Both the position numbers and the translations under genes were made by a program. DNA of 64,000 nucleotides from Aquisalinus flavus. Its GTDB lineage: Bacteria > Pseudomonadota > Alphaproteobacteria > Caulobacterales > Parvularculaceae. The notes under the pieces were generated by a model. It was not told the DNA's origin, ran no database searches, and was given only the letters and a program-made list of their open reading frames with translations. How positions within the stretch are numbered: position 1 is the first letter of the stretch; every line of letters begins with the position of its first letter. The stretch is from assembly GCF_022559625.1 (NCBI RefSeq), contig NZ_CP042288.1, positions 1,627,409-1,691,408 on the forward strand. The letters are read 5' to 3'. Positions 8,399 to 56,140 of this stretch are shown here, piece by piece.

Positions 8399-8462
8399 GG
8401 CCGACAGTCTACCGGTATCGCCAATCGCTCACAAGCTGGATGATTGCCGCAGCTACTGCCGC

Positions 8463-8547
8463 CCTTCGTGGCCCGCTTCGCGGGCACCTCAGGGTGAGGT
8501 CAGTGCACTCCTCATCCTGAGGAGTCGGCGTAGCCGACCTCGAAGGA
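8463..8547. repeat. Palindromic intergenic repeat, copy A
   Basis: Starts CCTTCGTGG and ends CTCGAAGGA, with inner arms CCTCAGGGTGAGG and CTCCTCATCCTGAGGAG. It abuts the cysE stop codon and lies between cysE and crtZ. It shares its core with copies B (11421-11508) and C (51525-51632), though its outer arms are less perfect. Palindromes containing CCTCATCCTGAGG are common in alphaproteobacterial intergenic DNA. Confidence 0.75.
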
Positions 8548-11420: not shown

Positions 11421-11508
11421 TCCTTCGTGGGCTCCTCCGGAGCCGCCTCAGGATGAGGTTCTGTTAGATCGCTCCTCATGCTGAGGTGCTGCCGCAGGCA
11501 GCCACGAA
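11421..11508. repeat. Palindromic intergenic repeat, copy B
   Basis: Starts TCCTTCGTGG and ends GCCACGAA, with inner arms GCCTCAGGATGAGG and CCTCATGCTGAGG, so it folds into a long hairpin. It lies between the M48 protease gene and queF. Clearly the same family as copy C inside glyS. Confidence 0.8.
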
Positions 11509-47856: not shown

Positions 47857-50526
47857 CTATTTGTTAACCGATAGCGCCGATTGCGCCGCCGTAAGGCGCG
47901 CTATCGGCACCCGGTACGGCGAGCACGACACATAGTCGAGGCCGAGCTTTTCAACGAAATGGATCGAATCGGGGTCCCCGCCATGCTCGCCGCAGATGCC
48001 CAGCTTGAGGTTTGCCCGGGCCGAGCGGCCCTTTGTGGCAGCCATCTCGATCAGCGCGCCTACGCCGGCCTGATCGAGCGTGACGAACGGGTCCTGCTCG
48101 AGAATGCCCTGTTTCTGATAGGCCGGCAGGAAGGAGCCGGCATCGTCGCGCGACAGGCCGAAGGTCGTCTGGGTCAGATCATTGGTACCGAAGGAGAAGA
48201 ACTCCGCCTCCACCGCGATCTTGTCGGCGGTCAGCGCGGCGCGCGGCAGCTCGATCATCGTGCCGACGAGATAGGTCATGTCCTGGCCTTTCTCGACCAG
48301 CACCGCCTTGCAGACCGCATCGACACGCACCTTCAGGGTCGACAGCTCCTTCACCTCGGCAACGAGCGGGATCATGATTTCCGGCACGATCGTCTCGCCG
48401 GTCTCCTTGGCCACCTCGCACGCGGCCTCCATCAGGGCGCGTACCTGCATCTCGTAGATTTCGGGATAGGTGATGCCAAGGCGGCAGCCGCGATGGCCCA
48501 GCATCGGGTTGAACTCGTTCAGCTTGTGGGCCCGCGCTTTCAGCGCGGCAGGTTCCAGGCCGGACGCCTTGGCGACCTCCTCGATCTCGGCATCGGAATG
48601 CGGCAAGAATTCATGCAATGGCGGATCGAGCAGGCGCACCGTCACCGGCAGGCCGGCCATCACCTCGAACAGTGCCTTGAAGTCGCCGCGCTGCATCGGC
48701 AGCAGCTTGGCCAGCGCCGTCTCGCGCCCTGCCTTGTCCTCGGCGAGGATCATCTCGCGCACGGCGACGATCCGCTCGGCCTCGAAGAACATGTGCTCGG
48801 TCCGGCACAGGCCGATGCCCTCCGCGCCGAAATCACGGGCGGTCTTCGCGTCAAGCGGCGTCTCGGCATTGGCGCGCACTTTCATGCGGCGATACCGGTC
48901 GGCCCAGGTCATGATCTTCCGGAAATCGCCGGACAGTTCCGGCTGCACGGTCTTGACCTCCCCGGCAAAGACTTCGCCGGTCGCGCCATCGATGGTGATC
49001 CAGTCGCCCTTGGCGATGGACCGGCCACCGGCGGTGAAGCCCGATCCATCCTTCTCGATGCGCAGATCGCCGGCGCCGCACACACAGGGCCGTCCCATAC
49101 CACGGGCGACGACCGCCGCATGGCTGGTCATGCCGCCGCGGGCGGTGACGATGCCTTTCGCGGCATGCATGCCATGAATGTCTTCCGGGCTCGTCTCCAC
49201 GCGCACGAGGATGACCGGCTTACCGTCCTGCGCCAGCCGCTCTGCCTCATCCGAGGAGAACACCACCTCCCCCGCCGCTGCGCCGGGCGATGCCGGCAAG
49301 CCCTTGGTGATGACGTCGCGCTTCGCTTTCGGGTCAAGCGAGGGGTGCAGCAGCTGGTCGAGTGAGCCGGGCTCGACGCGCATAACCGCTTCTTCCTCAC
49401 TGATCAGCCCGTCGGCGCACATTTCCACGGCAATCTTCAGCGCGGCCTTCGCCGTGCGCTTGCCGGTGCGCGTCTGCAGCATCCACAGCTTGCCTTCCTG
49501 GATGGTGAACTCGATGTCCTGCATGTCGCGATAATGCTGCTCCAGCTTTTCGAACACAGCGACCAGCTCCCTGAATGTCTCCGGCATCGCCTCTTCCATC
49601 GAGGGCAGATCCTCGCCCTGCTTCTGCTTGGCAAAGATCGTCAGCGGCTGCGGCGTGCGGATGCCGGCGACAACATCCTCACCCTGGGCGTTGATCAGGA
49701 ACTCGCCATAATAGGCGCGCTCGCCGGTCGACGGGTCGCGGGTGAAGGCAACGCCGGTCGCCGACGTCTCGCCCATATTGCCAAAGACCATGGCCTGCAC
49801 GGTCACCGCCGTGCCCCATTCCTCGGGGATATTGTGCAGGCGGCGATAGGTGTTCGCCCGCTCGTTGCGCCAGGAGCCGAACACGGCGTCGATCGCGCCC
49901 CAAAGCTGCGCCGTCACATCCTGCGGGAACGGTTCGCCGCGCTCCTTGCTGACCACATCCTTGTACTGACCGATGACAGCCTTCCAGTCCGCCGCGGTCA
50001 TGTCGGTGTCGAGCCTGTAGTCGTGATCTTCCTTGTAGAGGTCGAGGATCTCCTCGAAATGATAGTGATCGACGCCGAGCACCACGTCTGAATACATCTG
50101 GATGAAGCGGCGATAGCTGTCATAGGCAAAGCGCTCATCGCCGGCCAGCGCAGCGAGCCCGGCGACCGTCTCGTCATTCAGGCCCAGGTTGAGCACCGTG
50201 TCCATCATGCCGGGCATGGAGGCGCGGGCACCGGAGCGTACGGAAACGAGCAGCGGGTTTTTCGTATCGCCGAAGTGCTTGTCGACCAGCTCGCCGATAC
50301 GGGCAACGGCCTCGTCGACCTTTTGCGCCAGCCCGTCCGGATACTGACGGTCATTCTTGTAAAAAAGCGTGCACACATCGGTGGTGATGGTAAAGCCCGG
50401 CGGCACGGGCAGGCCCAGACTGGCCATCTCGGCAAGGTTCGCGCCCTTGCCGCCCAGAAGGTTCTTCAGGCTTGCATCGCCGTCGGCATCGCCGCCGCCG
50501 AAATTATAGACCCACTTGTCACTCAT
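47857..50526 (-). CDS. ppdK: Pyruvate, phosphate dikinase
   Basis: 889 residues, the standard length. The three domains are in order: the ATP-grasp domain (GGKGANLAEMASLGLPVPPGF at residues 25-45, VSVRSGARASMPGMMDT), the phosphohistidine swivel domain (GGMTSHAAVVARGMGRPCV), and the PEP/pyruvate barrel (GLCRTEHMFF, SFGTNDLTQTTFG, GICGEHGGDP). It interconverts pyruvate, ATP and Pi with PEP, AMP and PPi and can run toward gluconeogenesis or glycolysis. It starts 33 bp after the glyS stop on the same strand; the pair is a frequent neighbourhood in alphaproteobacteria. Confidence 0.97.
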   Translation of the reverse strand: MSDKWVYNFGGGDADGDASLKNLLGGKGANLAEMASLGLPVPPGFTITTDVCTLFYKNDRQYPDGLAQKVDEAVARIGELVDKHFGDTKNPLLVSVRSGARASMPGMMDTVLNLGLNDETVAGLAALAGDERFAYDSYRRFIQMYSDVVLGVDHYHFEEILDLYKEDHDYRLDTDMTAADWKAVIGQYKDVVSKERGEPFPQDVTAQLWGAIDAVFGSWRNERANTYRRLHNIPEEWGTAVTVQAMVFGNMGETSATGVAFTRDPSTGERAYYGEFLINAQGEDVVAGIRTPQPLTIFAKQKQGEDLPSMEEAMPETFRELVAVFEKLEQHYRDMQDIEFTIQEGKLWMLQTRTGKRTAKAALKIAVEMCADGLISEEEAVMRVEPGSLDQLLHPSLDPKAKRDVITKGLPASPGAAAGEVVFSSDEAERLAQDGKPVILVRVETSPEDIHGMHAAKGIVTARGGMTSHAAVVARGMGRPCVCGAGDLRIEKDGSGFTAGGRSIAKGDWITIDGATGEVFAGEVKTVQPELSGDFRKIMTWADRYRRMKVRANAETPLDAKTARDFGAEGIGLCRTEHMFFEAERIVAVREMILAEDKAGRETALAKLLPMQRGDFKALFEVMAGLPVTVRLLDPPLHEFLPHSDAEIEEVAKASGLEPAALKARAHKLNEFNPMLGHRGCRLGITYPEIYEMQVRALMEAACEVAKETGETIVPEIMIPLVAEVKELSTLKVRVDAVCKAVLVEKGQDMTYLVGTMIELPRAALTADKIAVEAEFFSFGTNDLTQTTFGLSRDDAGSFLPAYQKQGILEQDPFVTLDQAGVGALIEMAATKGRSARANLKLGICGEHGGDPDSIHFVEKLGLDYVSCSPYRVPIARLTAAQSALSVNK

Positions 50527-50559
50527 TCCACGCTCTCCATCAGGTTGGAGGGCGTTTCC

Positions 50560-52875
50560 CTAGCCCTCCAGGCGCGACAGGTCTGCCACCTGTTCGCATG
50601 TTGTTTTAATCTCAGACAGCAAGGCGAGACGATTGTTCCGCAATGCAGCATCTTCCGAATTGACCGTAACGTCTTCAAAGAAGGTATCAAGCGGAACCCG
50701 CAGTTTTGCCAACGCCGACATGGCTTTTTCGAAATCTTCTTCCGCACACGCACTGTTAGCGGTATCACGAACCTCTTTCAGCACGGCGTAAAGCTGCTTT
50801 TCGGCGGGCTCGACGAGCTTTTCTTCGATGACTGAACCGCTGACATCGGTGTCGCCCTTCTTCTCCTCGGCCTTGAGGATATTGGCGACCCGCTTGTAGG
50901 CAGCGGTCAGGTTCGCCCCGTCATCGGTCTTGAGAAAGGCATCAAGCGCGGTGAGCTTCGCCACGATCAAGACAATGTCATCCTCAATGAGGTCATCTGC
51001 TCGAAAAACCGATGCGTCGATAACGTCGTAAGTGGAGCATTTCTCACGTAGATAAATCCTCAAACGCTCATGGAAGAAAGCAATTAAGTCAGGCGCTACG
51101 GAAGCAAATTGCAGCCCGCGGTGCTCATATACTTTCTTGAGTTGCGGTGAGTTCACATACTCTCGGCGCGTTTCAGCAAGGATTTTACCTGTAGCTTTTT
51201 CAATTTTTTCAAATGCCAGTTTAGCGTCATGGGCCACGTCTCGCATAACGACTTCTGCAACCCTTTTAAGATGTCGTTCGACGAGGGGTATAAGTTCAAA
51301 GCGAAACCCACCGCCTAGAATTAAGGCGAAAGAACTCAACGCTGCCCGTCTCAAGGCAAACGGATCGCCCGATCCGGTCGGCTTCCTGCCGATGGCCCAG
51401 AAGGCCGTCAGCGTGTCGAGCTTGTCGGCGAGCGCAACCGCAACAGTCACCGGCTCGGTCGGCACGTCGTCATTCTGGCCGGCGGGCTTGTAGTGATCGC
51501 GAATGGCGTTTGAGATAGCCCGATCCTCGTCCTTCGTGGGCGACTTCGTCGCCGCCTCAGGATGAGGATCTTGTTCAGCACCCGGAGCAGCCTCATCCTG
51601 AGGTGCCGCGCCAGCGGCCACGAAGGACGAGGCGGCCTGTGCTTCATAATAATAGGCGCCCATCAGGCCCTGCAGTTCCGGGAATTCATAGACCATCTGG
51701 GTGACGAGATCGGCCTTGGCGAGGCGGGCTGCCTTCTCTGCCATGTCCGGATCAGCCCCGACCGCCGGGGCGAGTTCACGGGCGAGCGCCGCGATGCGCT
51801 CGACCTTGTCAGCGACGGTGCCGAGGCCCTCGAAGAAGGTCACCTTCTCCAGCTTCTTGGCGTGCTCGGCCAAAGGCGTCTTCAAATCCTGCTGATAGAG
51901 GAACCAGGCATCCGACAGCCGCGCGGTCAGCACGCGCTCATAGCCGGTGCGCATCGCCGCGCCGCCATCGGGCGCCTCGATATTGGCGACATAGACGAAC
52001 TTGTTGGCGAGGCGGCCCGTCTTCGGGTCGCGTACGGAGAAATATTTCTGGTGCCCGCGCATCGAGGCCGTCAGCGCCTCGTCCGGTACGGTGAGGAATT
52101 TCTCGTCGAACGTGCCGACCATCACGACCGGCCATTCGGCCAGCCCTGCAACCTCGGCCAAAAGCCCCTCATCCTCTACCAGCTCCAAACCTTGAGCCTT
52201 GCACAGCTGCTGCGCCTCGCCGAGGATCGTGTCTTTTCGTTCTTCCGTATCGAGAACGACTTTCGCGCGCTTCAGCTGCGCGGCGTAATCCTCGAAATTG
52301 CGGACCTGGATCTCCTGCGGCGCCATGAAGCGATGACCCCATGTGCGGTCGCCGGCGGTCACGCCGTCGATCTCGAACGCCACGATCTCGCCATCGAAGG
52401 CGCACAGGATCGCGTGCAGCGGGCGCACCCAGCGCAGCTCACCATCGCCCCAGCGCATGGATTTCGGCCACGGGAATTTCGCGATCACTTCCGGCATGAA
52501 CCCGGCGATCACTTCCGCCGTCGGGCGGCCCTTCTCCTCGATCAGGGCGACGTAATACTGGCCCTTCTTGTCGTCCCTCACCTCGCACTGGTCGAGACTG
52601 TCGAGACCCGCCGATTTCAGGAATCCCTCGACCGCCTTCTCCGGTGCACCGACGCGGGGACCTTTTCGCTCTTCCTTGCGGTCCGGCTGGGCATTGGGCA
52701 GACCGGTGACGACCAGCGCCAGGCGGCGCGGCGTGGCAAAGCCCTTGGCGCCTTCCGGCATGAACCCGGCATCGAGCAGCTGCTGGTTGACCAGGCGCTC
52801 AAGGTCGGCGGCGGCGCGCGCCTGCATGCGCGCGGGGATCTCTTCTGAGAACAGTTCAAGGAGTAAATCAGCCAT
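50560..52875 (-). CDS. glyS: Glycyl-tRNA synthetase beta subunit with an in-frame repeat insertion
   Basis: 771 residues, longer than the usual roughly 690. It opens with LLLELFSEEIPARMQARAA and contains GLAEWPVVMVG...LTASMRGHQKYF, KVTFFEGLGTVADKVERI, and the HD-like TQMVYEFPELQGLMGAYYYEA. Just after that block, residues about 415-450 are encoded by a 108-bp palindromic repeat (51525-51632); the normal sequence (AISNAIRDHYKPAGQNDDVP) resumes after it. The 3' part is noticeably A+T-richer. The alpha subunit gene glyQ, needed for the alpha2beta2 enzyme, is not in the window. Otherwise intact. Confidence 0.95.
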   Translation of the reverse strand: MADLLLELFSEEIPARMQARAAADLERLVNQQLLDAGFMPEGAKGFATPRRLALVVTGLPNAQPDRKEERKGPRVGAPEKAVEGFLKSAGLDSLDQCEVRDDKKGQYYVALIEEKGRPTAEVIAGFMPEVIAKFPWPKSMRWGDGELRWVRPLHAILCAFDGEIVAFEIDGVTAGDRTWGHRFMAPQEIQVRNFEDYAAQLKRAKVVLDTEERKDTILGEAQQLCKAQGLELVEDEGLLAEVAGLAEWPVVMVGTFDEKFLTVPDEALTASMRGHQKYFSVRDPKTGRLANKFVYVANIEAPDGGAAMRTGYERVLTARLSDAWFLYQQDLKTPLAEHAKKLEKVTFFEGLGTVADKVERIAALARELAPAVGADPDMAEKAARLAKADLVTQMVYEFPELQGLMGAYYYEAQAASSFVAAGAAPQDEAAPGAEQDPHPEAATKSPTKDEDRAISNAIRDHYKPAGQNDDVPTEPVTVAVALADKLDTLTAFWAIGRKPTGSGDPFALRRAALSSFALILGGGFRFELIPLVERHLKRVAEVVMRDVAHDAKLAFEKIEKATGKILAETRREYVNSPQLKKVYEHRGLQFASVAPDLIAFFHERLRIYLREKCSTYDVIDASVFRADDLIEDDIVLIVAKLTALDAFLKTDDGANLTAAYKRVANILKAEEKKGDTDVSGSVIEEKLVEPAEKQLYAVLKEVRDTANSACAEEDFEKAMSALAKLRVPLDTFFEDVTVNSEDAALRNNRLALLSEIKTTCEQVADLSRLEG
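51525..51632. repeat. Palindromic repeat, copy C, inside glyS
   Basis: 108 bp (exactly 36 codons). Outer arms CCTCGTCCTTCGTGG (51525-51539) and CCACGAAGGACGAGG (51618-51632) are perfect 15-bp complements; inner arms GCCTCAGGATGAGG and CCTCATCCTGAGG also pair. Same family as the intergenic copies A and B. Read in the glyS frame it adds a stretch rich in Ala, Pro, Glu and Asp with no stop. Confidence 0.9.
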
Positions 52876-52916
52876 AACCCCAATCGTTTAGGCGGCAGCG
52901 CGGTGCCTTGCAACAG

Positions 52917-53939
52917 CTATTGCACCACCAGTTTGCGCTGGTCTTCCATCCCCATGGACAGGACCAGCGGATCACTGCCCTGCCGGGTCTTGAACGCGCC
53001 CTTGCCCGTCAGCCCGCGCCAGCGATGGCGGATCAGTTCCTGTGCCACCGGCGCGCCCATGGTCGTGCCCGGCCCGAGCAGGATGAACACGTCCGGCGCA
53101 TACTCCTTGGCCGCAACCTCGATCGCCTTCGAGAAATCATAGGGCGTGTCGATCTGCGCCCCCAGCGTATAGCCGTGCAGGGCGTCCGTGTCCGTCGACC
53201 AGGGCGACCACTGGTTGGCCTTGCCGTCGATCAGCGGCATGGCGGGCCTGGCGAACATCTCCGCGCCCAGCTTCTCTTGCGCCAGCGGCGGCACATGGGA
53301 GAGCAGCGGCGAATGGAAGGCCGCGTGGTTGGCGAGCCGCATAGGATAGCGGTCGGAGGCCGGCAATTCCCGCTCCAGCAGCTTCAGCCCGGCCTCGTCC
53401 GCGGCAAGCACGCTGATCCCGCCGAGCCTGATCGACTGGTGAACATTATCGTTTTCGGCGATCAGCCGGTCGATCAGCGCCTGCTTTGCGGCGTCCGGCT
53501 GCCAGTCATCGTCGACGACCGGATAGACCATTTGCCCGCCGCGCCCCTCGGCCTGCATCAGCGTGCCCATTGTGTTGACCAGGCGCGCGCCCTCTTCGTG
53601 CGACAGCGTCCCCCCGGCGGTCAGCGCCAGATACCAGCCCATGGAATTGCCGGTGACGGCGACGGGCTCGTATTGCTCGCGGTCGATGGCCATGAAATCG
53701 GCAATCGCGCAGGCGAAGATCAAGAGCGAGGCGTTCTGGCTGGAGGTGTGGCGGGCGAGCGAGAACCGCTCGGCGCCATCGAGCGCACTGACCGGCGTCT
53801 GGCCCTCGGCCTCGCGCAACGCATCGAGCATGGCGATGAAATCCGCCTTGTCGCCATGGTGGCGGGTGAGATAGCCGAGCTCCGCCGCATTATAGGTGCC
53901 GCGCCCGGGGCAGACGATGACCGCTTTCTTCCTGGTCAT
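52917..53939 (-). CDS. Acyltransferase of the malonyl-CoA:ACP transacylase (FabD) fold, atypical active site
   Basis: 340 residues from the ATG at 53939, overlapping the E1 stop by 4 bp. The FabD alignment is clear: GNSMGWYLALTAGGTLSHEEGARLVNTMGTLMQ corresponds to GHSxGEYxAL...RGxLMQ, with Ser99 as nucleophile, and LANHAAFHSPL holds the catalytic His. Three family-critical positions differ: PGRG for PGQG (the oxyanion Gln), Asn98 for the His of GHSxG, and Met124 for the Arg that binds the malonyl carboxylate. So it is probably not a malonyltransferase and may move a non-carboxylated acyl group. Cytosolic. Paired with the fused E1 gene. Confidence 0.78.
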   Translation of the reverse strand: MTRKKAVIVCPGRGTYNAAELGYLTRHHGDKADFIAMLDALREAEGQTPVSALDGAERFSLARHTSSQNASLLIFACAIADFMAIDREQYEPVAVTGNSMGWYLALTAGGTLSHEEGARLVNTMGTLMQAEGRGGQMVYPVVDDDWQPDAAKQALIDRLIAENDNVHQSIRLGGISVLAADEAGLKLLERELPASDRYPMRLANHAAFHSPLLSHVPPLAQEKLGAEMFARPAMPLIDGKANQWSPWSTDTDALHGYTLGAQIDTPYDFSKAIEVAAKEYAPDVFILLGPGTTMGAPVAQELIRHRWRGLTGKGAFKTRQGSDPLVLSMGMEDQRKLVVQ

Positions 53940-56140
53940 TTGCCGCCTCCACACAGTTTCACCGCCGCATCGATAATACCATCAACCGAGGGCAGCACCT
54001 CATAAGCGGCGGGCCCGAGCGGGATGAAGCTGTCGTCGGCACAATAGCGGGCGGTCCTAGCTGTCACGCCGGCCTCCGCCAGCAGCGTCATGATCTGTTC
54101 ACTGACGGACCCGGTGCGCCGTGTCTCGTCGACGACCAGCACGGTCTGGCACTGGCGGGCGTGCTTCAGCATCGCCTCGCGCGGCAGCGGATGCAGCCAG
54201 CGCAAATCGACGACGCGCGAGCGGATGCCATGACTTTCGCCCAGCACTTTCGCCGCCTTGCGTGACAGGTAATAGCCATTGCCATAGGACAGGATGCACA
54301 AATCCCGCCCGTCGCCATGGTGCCCGGCCTCGCCCAGCGTGACGCGATGATCCTCCGCCGGGGCGCGATAGCGTGAGGCCCATTTGCCGTCGCCGTCCTC
54401 GTGAAGATCAGCTGTCATGTAGAGCGCGATGGGTTCGAGGAAGATGACGACGCGCCGCTCTTCCTCCGCCAGCCGCACGCATTCACGCAGCATGCGCGCG
54501 CCATCGGTGCCGTTGGACGGACAGGCGATGATGATGCCGGGAATGTCGCGCAGGGCGGCAAAGGAATTGTCGTTATGGAAATGCCCGCCAAAGCCCTTCT
54601 GATAGGCCAGCCCGGCAATGCGCACGACCATCGGGTTCGTGTACTGACCGTTGGAGAAGAAGGACAGGGTCGACGCCTCGCCCCTGATCTGGTCGGCGGC
54701 ATTGTGGATATAGGCGAGAAACTGGATTTCCGGGATCGGCAGGAAGCCATTATGCGCCATGCCGATAGCGAGCCCGAGGATCGATTGTTCGTCGAGCAGC
54801 GTGTCGATTACCCGCGCCGGGCCGAAGGCCGCCTGCAGGCCGGTGGTGACGGAATAGACACCGCCCTTGCGCCCGACATCCTCGCCGAAGACGACGATAT
54901 TCTTATACTGCAGCATGATATCAGCGAGGGCGAGATTGATGTGGCGGGCCAGAGGGAGCGGCTTGTCCTTCTGGCGCAGCTCTTTCACTTCAGACCGCGC
55001 CGCCTCGCCCGGCAGGGCCGGCGCCTTGCCGGCCGAGACCGGCGGGACCAACGGCGCCATCACCGCCGCCGCGCTGGTCAGCCTCGGCCGGGCACAGGCG
55101 TCTTCGGCAACGCGCATAACGCGTTCACCGGTCTCGTGATACAGCCGGCAGATATCCTCCGCGCTCATGACGCGCTCGCGGATCAGGTGGCGGGCCGTGT
55201 GCAGCAGCGGGTCCTGTGCCTCGCAAGCCTCGATATGCGAAACATCCGTATAGGCCGCTTCGATATCAGCCCCGGCATGGCCCATCAGGCGCACGGTCTT
55301 CATGTGCAGGAAGACAGGCCGCCGCGTGCGCCGCGCATAATCCACCGCCGCCGCCGTTCCGCGACAGGCATCGAGAATGTCGCGCCCGTCGCAGGCCATA
55401 TAGGTCAGCCCCGGACGATGGGAGAATGTCGACGCGATCCAGCCTTTGGGCGTGCGCACGGAAATGCCGATATCATTGTCCTCGCAGATGAAGACGATCG
55501 GCATTGGCAGGTTCTGGTAGGCGGTCCAGGCGGCCGTATTGAACGCGCCCTGCGCCGTCGAGTGATTGGCCGAAGCATCACCAAAGGAACACAGGATCAC
55601 TGCATCGCGCGGCAGCACCGCCTCGACATCGGTCAGCTTGCGCGACAGCGCGATAGAATGCGCAGCGCCGACAGCCTTGGGCAGATGCGAGGCGATGGTC
55701 GAGGTCTGCGGCGGCACGAACACCTCATGCCCGCCCAGCACCTTGTGGCGCCCGCCGGAGACCGGGTCCTCGGCACTGGCGGCAAAAGACAGGCACATGT
55801 CATAGAGATAGGTCGATCCCGATACGGACTTCTTCCGCTCGAGCAGAAAGGCGCCGTCGCGGTAGTGCAGGAAGGCCATGTCGGACAGCCGCGACAGGCG
55901 CCCCAGCGTCGCCATGCCCTCATGGCCGGACGAGCCGATGGAATAGAAGGTCCTGCCCTTGGACCGGCGCGCCATCAGGTCGAGATGGCGGCTCATCACC
56001 TGCGTCTCGAACAGGCCGGCCAGCGCGGTCGCGTCAAGGCCAGAATCGGCAAGCGTTGTATCGCTCAATGGCCCGGGCAGGTCCCCTGCCCCGACCCTGT
56101 CGATGAACGCCTTGTCGATGATCACTGCCCGGTCGAACAA
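53936..56140 (-). CDS. Fused alpha-beta E1 of a 2-oxoacid dehydrogenase (thiamine diphosphate-dependent)
   Basis: 734 residues. The first half is E1 alpha: SSGHEGMATLG, then the ThDP motif GDASANHSTAQGAFNTAAWTAYQNLPMPIVFICEDN. The second half (from about residue 390) is E1 beta: LADIMLQYKNIVVFGEDVG, PEIQFLAYIHNAADQIRGEASTLSF, and VVDLRWLHPLP. Such fused enzymes resemble branched-chain 2-oxoacid dehydrogenases, which decarboxylate the 2-oxo acid and pass the acyl group to a lipoyl E2. No E2 or E3 gene is nearby; the acyltransferase gene overlaps its end by 4 bp. Substrate unknown. Confidence 0.85.
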   Translation of the reverse strand: MFDRAVIIDKAFIDRVGAGDLPGPLSDTTLADSGLDATALAGLFETQVMSRHLDLMARRSKGRTFYSIGSSGHEGMATLGRLSRLSDMAFLHYRDGAFLLERKKSVSGSTYLYDMCLSFAASAEDPVSGGRHKVLGGHEVFVPPQTSTIASHLPKAVGAAHSIALSRKLTDVEAVLPRDAVILCSFGDASANHSTAQGAFNTAAWTAYQNLPMPIVFICEDNDIGISVRTPKGWIASTFSHRPGLTYMACDGRDILDACRGTAAAVDYARRTRRPVFLHMKTVRLMGHAGADIEAAYTDVSHIEACEAQDPLLHTARHLIRERVMSAEDICRLYHETGERVMRVAEDACARPRLTSAAAVMAPLVPPVSAGKAPALPGEAARSEVKELRQKDKPLPLARHINLALADIMLQYKNIVVFGEDVGRKGGVYSVTTGLQAAFGPARVIDTLLDEQSILGLAIGMAHNGFLPIPEIQFLAYIHNAADQIRGEASTLSFFSNGQYTNPMVVRIAGLAYQKGFGGHFHNDNSFAALRDIPGIIIACPSNGTDGARMLRECVRLAEEERRVVIFLEPIALYMTADLHEDGDGKWASRYRAPAEDHRVTLGEAGHHGDGRDLCILSYGNGYYLSRKAAKVLGESHGIRSRVVDLRWLHPLPREAMLKHARQCQTVLVVDETRRTGSVSEQIMTLLAEAGVTARTARYCADDSFIPLGPAAYEVLPSVDGIIDAAVKLCGGGK

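Follow-up and report, generated by a model that had tools for sequence, protein, structure and literature searches.

A palindromic repeat in the coding sequence of glyS

The window analysed is a stretch of 64,000 nucleotides from the Aquisalinus flavus genome (NZ_CP042288.1, positions 1,627,409 to 1,691,408). A 108-bp palindrome at 51525-51632, belonging to a dispersed hairpin-forming repeat, lies in frame inside glyS. The features, in window coordinates, are as follows.

50560-52875, minus strand: glyS, glycyl-tRNA synthetase beta subunit, 771 amino acids including the palindrome-encoded segment (PF02092, PF05746)
51525-51632, minus strand: palindromic element of two ~43-bp hairpin half-units in inverted arrangement, in frame as GlyS residues ~415-450 (...AASSFVAAGAAPQDEAAPGAEQDPHPEAATKSPTKDED...)
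51525-51539: outer arm CCTCGTCCTTCGTGG, from the arm search
51618-51632: outer arm CCACGAAGGACGAGG, perfect complement of 51525-51539
51550-51567: inner arm containing CCTCAGGATGAGG, pairing 89% over 18 nt
51591-51608: inner arm containing CCTCATCCTGAGG, pairing with the 51550-51567 arm
8460-8547: intergenic copy of the same family as the glyS element, from the nucleotide search
11421-11508: intergenic copy of the same family as the glyS element, from the nucleotide search

The outer arms are perfect over 15 bp and 94% complementary over 18 nt, and the inner arms include the 13-bp pair CCTCAGGATGAGG/CCTCATCCTGAGG at about 51555-51567 and 51591-51603. The minus-strand RNA of the element folds at -73.4 kcal/mol (z -6.9), and none of 200 dinucleotide shuffles was equally stable. 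The open reading frame matches PF02092 (E 1e-182) without an internal stop, and 36 of its stop-free codons are supplied by the element. An earlier note, made from the sequence alone, had described the 108-bp palindrome with its perfect 15-bp arms and stop-free 36 codons in glyS, and the arm search, the fold and the reading frame all confirm this. The insertion of 36 residues that it proposed is also real, with a net gain over the empty site of ~34-36 residues; a few flanking residues also differ from the empty site, which blurs the exact insertion junction. The open frame in the sole full glyS match found suggests that the segment is retained in mRNA and protein. No Rfam family matched at E up to 1 in window 50500-53000, and a known structured RNA family was rejected as the identity of the element.

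Directly upstream of glyS lies a weakly acyltransferase-like gene, and no glyQ is found directly next to glyS on that side. The adjoining minus-strand gene (53936-56140) is a single reading frame of 734 amino acids that joins E1-dehydrogenase and transketolase-type domains.

When the home genome (3,135,332 bases) was searched at the nucleotide level, about 36 copies of the family were found at E < 1e-4. Of these, 26 are at least 70 bp long and mostly made of an inverted pair of ~43-bp hairpin units; the other ten measure 39-51 bp. These dispersed copies support the proposal that the glyS insert derives from a repeat family. The two intergenic relatives that had been noticed at 8463-8547 and 11421-11508 are real, at 8460-8547 and 11421-11508, but the three copies then seen underestimate a family of about 36. 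With a simple codon-score gene caller, 34 of the ~36 copies are not wholly within a convincing gene and are often at most 30 bp from a gene end. Whole copies were found inside only two conserved genes, glyS and thiC, both times in frame; the remaining apparent genic copies were rejected because their frames are antisense or shadow ones that score poorly for codons. A genomic copy has, on average, 2.3 of its six frames open. In thiC the copy is a half unit that is read in frame as QPHPEEARSVVTKDE close to the C-terminal end of ThiC (L131:2030-2075; genome 474629-474674). The ThiC of Aquisalinus luteolus, 95% identical, is 15 residues shorter and does not have this copy; in the alignment the flanking residues are replaced and no clean duplication is visible.

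A. luteolus is the nearest named relative. Its GlyS is 95% identical over the first 415 residues and has a short loop, with GAYYAEAEGQPAEIVNAIRDHY (L031/L004) where the window has GAYYYEAQ-[insert]-RAISNAIRDHY. All five same-genus genomes sampled have the short loop, and the gain of the insert is therefore most simply specific to the home lineage. Nine family matches are found in A. luteolus, none of them in glyS and one ~50 bp upstream of its glyS (G002:C3:40047-40141), which makes it probable that the element was already present when the glyS insertion occurred. A further family copy lies immediately downstream of glyS in another genome (G032:C4:186259-186302). No target-site duplication of the kind left by classical MITEs was seen in the comparison of glyS and thiC with A. 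luteolus, where divergence of the empty sites around the junctions would hide one.

A reading in which the 36 residues belong to GlyS by ancestry and only happen to look palindromic has a negligible probability. Long loops occur at this place in other relatives too, but they are mostly unrelated palindromes, and the segment is absent from the same-genus and most other genomes of the order and matches dispersed repeats; the empty sites and the repeat copies already refute this reading. Conservation of the residues in many palindrome-free relatives had been named beforehand as the observation that would speak against an insertion. What was found is a short loop in the closest relative, in the sampled genus-mates and in 105 of 162 distinct loops of the order.

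GlyS also diverges from A. luteolus in a second region (window ~50940-51330, residues ~516-645), with 20-60% identity amid ~80-100%. This region is very length-variable across the order, with up to 116 extra residues and no palindromes, and is possibly a recombined or fast-evolving segment. A recombination breakpoint at the insert had been considered, since GlyS is 95% identical to that of A. luteolus before it and 69% after it, but was rejected, the drop being confined to residues ~516-645.

Recurrent inserts at one GlyS loop

Among 246 evenly sampled Caulobacterales genomes with GlyS, each at least 90% complete, the GlyS match was split in 49. The break lies elsewhere in two of these (G150, G206), which leaves a large insert at this loop in 47, distributed over families f1-f5 as 5, 8, 6, 14 and 14 genomes. 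No stops were found within the split glyS matches among the matches listed. The extra residues number ~20-70 and are mostly encoded by palindromes of several unrelated families. While the 105 short loops have 19 residues between the anchors, 55 loops have 25-92. Folding gave z < -3 for 36 and z < -2 for 45 of the 55 long loops, against a mean z of -0.23 for the short ones. Some long loops form no palindrome (L009, L032, L222 and L224) and may derive from decayed inserts or have another origin; a palindrome is likewise absent from the long inserts at this site in L032 and in L009/L035 (Amphiplicatus metriothermophilus).

The inserts were clustered after trimming of the conserved flanks. The majority are of a CTCCCC/GGGGAG type. 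The CATCCTGAGG type comprises L001, L002, L025, L033 and the remnant L003, and an ATCCCGG/CCGGGAC type comprises L182, L183, L211 and L217. Others are singletons, for example CGTACCGCCGGCTT in L190, and the L189 insert, of a CATCCCGAC-GAAA-GTCGGGAT-CCA type, resembles the published CGTC REP layout. In all ten genomes tested the trimmed insert also matches other places in its own genome, from one or two partial matches (G036, G039, G026) up to ten or more (G131). Different families occur within one pure-insert clade of the GlyS tree (L025, L095, L189, L219, L223), and L215 shares its flanks with L085/L181 yet has a different palindrome; the inserts therefore turn over. Mapping loop state on the GlyS tree (159 tips) required 21 changes by parsimony, and a mean of 44 when labels were shuffled. 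The loop is a recurrent landing site for hairpin repeats and not the place of a one-off accident. The earlier note missed this, that several unrelated palindrome families have repeatedly struck the loop across the order.

Other sites were used as controls. Inserts of at least 20 residues are found at the main loop in 48 of 159 sequences, against nine or fewer at the other palindrome-bearing sites of GlyS. Palindromic inserts occur in up to seven sequences at ~644 and in one each at 290, 378 and 490. The ~644 site is occupied in L085, L161, L178, L210, L212, L214 and L081, several of which also have a main-loop insert, and the single cases are L059 (290), L173 (378) and L148 (490). The very length-variable GlyS region 540-562 is not palindromic (mean z -0.40). 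PpdK, the product of the next gene (888 amino acids), had no internal insertion among the ~150 genomes listed. Its matches in four genomes of one genus (G065, G094, G085, G027) contain one in-frame stop codon (TGA or TAA); the match may simply run past the end of the gene and take in its terminal stop. ThiC has palindromes of several families at two loops (~residues 125 and 165) in several genomes; the G016 insert belongs to the CATCCTGAGG family and shares the PQDE/HPE frame of the GlyS inserts. The ThiC set (L250-L267) also includes inserts that form no palindrome or that consist of simple tandem repeats of a SPLATRHSP-like sequence (L260, L262). Outside the order, at most three of 289 Alphaproteobacteria could have an insert at the GlyS loop, since two of the six split matches break elsewhere and one spans the loop intact.

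The concentration of nearly all GlyS palindromic insertions in one loop (48/159 against at most nine elsewhere), and from several unrelated families, is what would be seen if the loop DNA held a site recognised by a mobilising enzyme. Such targeting is nevertheless improbable: one target would have to serve unrelated families, the insertions show no duplication in common, ThiC loops are struck too, and the site is bounded by protein structure, as tolerance predicts.

The AlphaFold model of the home GlyS has a mean pLDDT of 89.8, lowest in blocks 421-430 (56) and 431-440 (52). The insert is a low-confidence loop between the HD-domain helices 404-422 and 448-460, and the rest is well predicted. 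In Foldseek the model matches E. coli GlyRS 7yse (target TM 0.84), and the insertion site aligns to E. coli residues ~420-425. The HD domain of E. coli GlyRS comprises residues 341-540, with the cavity residue Tyr434 (PMC8464048). The site is thus inside the HD domain, ten residues before this cavity residue. The model and the alignment to the solved enzyme support the earlier suggestion that GlyS probably tolerates an exposed loop here.

The inserts are hydrophilic (GRAVY -0.83, Gly/Ala/Pro/Ser 53%). Every genic insert of the CATCCTGAGG type that was seen is read in the hydrophilic PQDE/HPE frame, and the LRMR/LILR frame is used by none of them. The count is of seven inserts: four full GlyS inserts, the remnant L003 and two in ThiC. 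With frames drawn in the proportions of the genomic copies, where 27 of 60 open ones are free of the hydrophobic-basic motif, seven of seven would have a probability of ~0.004. This value is no more than suggestive, the independence of the events being unproven and the classes having been defined after looking.

Nucleotide conservation of the inserts

One insert is common to four genomes of one genus (L011, L185, L187 and L026; the genus of G035, G039, G065 and G077). Its third codon positions are 0.82-0.95 identical; other glyS windows average 0.44-0.61, with a maximum of 0.79, and none of ~570 windows is as conserved. The edges are sharp, with conservation dropping at once in the flanks. The three codon positions are conserved alike, which is not the signature of a protein. 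Variable columns among the four sequences make up 8 of 86 (9%) in the stems and 8 of 25 in the unpaired part (Fisher p 0.009), against 201 of 246 (82%) four-fold sites elsewhere in glyS. In the consensus a short stem encloses five hairpins, and one internal pair has changed in a compensatory way from C-G to U-A. The conservation is weaker in a second genus (0.92-0.97 in the insert against 0.76-0.79), and L085/L181 have none (0.65 against 0.68). The four-genome pattern could result from selection on a hairpin, from correction between the arms or from repeated recent insertion; the sample is small and no function is claimed.

The palindrome could be kept for a nucleic-acid function, either as a hairpin in the glyS mRNA (pausing at the HD boundary, stability or control of termination) or as a DNA structure, and be gained convergently. 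The slow third positions and stems, the compensatory change, the milder conservation in the second genus and the recurrence of gains in many lineages are in line with this explanation, which is still considered rather unlikely: the strong signal is in four sequences only and the L085/L181 clade is without it, ~80% of the genomes of the order have no insert, unrelated structures occur, and the long loops L017, L005, L222 and L224 are short or non-palindromic and may be decayed inserts. A slightly more doubtful form of the idea sees the HD loop as a convergent acquisition site whose captured coding hairpins are kept by nucleic-acid selection, for example on translation speed or message stability. 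Unrelated selfish palindromes would then have been repeatedly domesticated as regulators of an essential gene from within its coding sequence.

Palindromy may also be maintained without selection, by template-switch (quasi-palindrome) correction between the arms or by gene conversion with genomic copies. This would account for the paired changes and for the lower rate of change in stems than in loops, and the genomes tested hold the repeats in multiple copies. It is less probable still, as the unpaired columns too vary less than the four-fold sites (8/25 against 201/246). In G039 only two partial other copies are found (~58 nt, 80-84%) and no full-length donor, which argues against gene conversion there.

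The preferred explanation, held with considerable confidence, is that the glyS element is a dispersed, non-autonomous REP/MITE-like palindrome that was inserted after the split from A. luteolus into a tolerated loop, one that serves as a recurrent refuge. A palindrome of this kind, a ~43-bp hairpin occurring singly or as an inverted pair of ~100 bp, would have reached glyS in the home lineage, probably by transposition, and landed in the short turn between two HD-domain helices. With a length that is a multiple of three and a stop-free hydrophilic frame, it would be transcribed and translated as a floppy loop of ~36 residues rich in Ala, Pro, Glu and Asp. The synthetase would tolerate this loop, with a nearly neutral effect on the enzyme. 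Genic insertions elsewhere would presumably be mostly lethal and purged, and the HD-domain turn would be one of few places in core genes where palindromes of any local family survive. No match to the Y1/RAYT transposase (PF01797) was found in the home genome (one contig, estimated 92.75% complete), and on this ground a resident RAYT was rejected as the mobiliser; of 16 genomes, 4 gave a match. The strong conservation of the insert in one genus is not predicted by pure tolerance, and tolerance alone does not explain the near-restriction to Caulobacterales.

Relation to known palindromic elements

Protein-coding palindromes as such are already known, from the Rickettsia palindromic elements (RPEs) and from intragenic REPs. 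GTAG- and CGTC-tagged REPs occur as singles and inverted dimers, mostly near the 3' ends of genes, and some are intragenic, including in tRNA synthetases; different REPs were found at about the same recB site in two Xanthomonas species (Di Nocera et al. 2013; PMC3733652). That same-site case concerns one species pair, whereas the GlyS loop is occupied in 47 genomes of five families, and the home genome has no RAYT match. Read from its sequence, the glyS family also departs in layout from the CGTC REPs, which have a CGTC tag, a stem of 8-9 bp beginning with AT, a loop of 4-5 nt and a CCA tail. CGTC does occur within the outer arm of the glyS element, but the unit measures ~43 bp and has GGACGAGG at its end. 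In nematomorph mitochondrial genes, embedded palindromes are translated with the genes and apparently evolutionarily kept (PMC6649704). These are perfect inverted repeats scattered through mitochondrial genes, not dispersed bacterial repeat families. Among the papers searched by sequence, none contains CCTCATCCTGAGG.

The CIR elements of Caulobacter, reportedly described by Chen and Shapiro in 2003, resemble the glyS element as a repeat family of Caulobacterales that forms two stem-loops. CIRs are strictly intergenic, with stops in all frames (PMC2229807; PMC10969869). The family in the window differs in having open frames (2.3 of six) and in sitting in glyS and thiC.

The closest likeness in mode of insertion is to the RPEs. 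They are said to have been described by Ogata et al. in 2000 and 2002 and to have counterparts in Wolbachia. RPEs are palindromes of 105-146 bp that form long stem-loops and are found in intergenic DNA as well as within conserved genes, where they are in frame and the encoded peptide is tolerated (PMC2229807; PMC10969869). The glyS element, of 108 bp and with a fold at z -6.9, is likewise a long stem-loop palindrome in the ~100-150 bp range, and it is in frame in the conserved glyS and, as a half unit, in thiC, while the A. luteolus orthologues do not have it. The comparison with RPEs drawn in the earlier note is thus apt as an analogy, not as membership: the host belongs to Caulobacterales and not Rickettsiales, and the likeness is one of mode. 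Only two of ~36 copies are genic here, against nearly half of the first-described RPEs (PMC10969869), and the stems are retained in one Caulobacterales genus, whereas RPEs are reported to lose their repeat identity (PMC6649704). No description of repeated insertion of unrelated families into one loop was found for RPEs.

The glyS element probably works like an RPE and belongs to a repeat family of its own that fits neither the CGTC-REP nor the CIR description. The recurrent landing loop and the nucleotide-level conservation in one clade appear to be new. Protein-coding palindromes, best known from the intracellular Rickettsia and Wolbachia, are hereby extended to the order Caulobacterales. The loop is a natural replicate experiment in which one site of an essential enzyme has undergone about twenty changes of state with unrelated repeats. 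With it one can test if selfish DNA that lies in frame is no more than tolerated or becomes useful, and which properties allow a position in a protein to accept an insert, and the four genomes with the conserved insert offer a concrete case for asking about selection on a coding hairpin.
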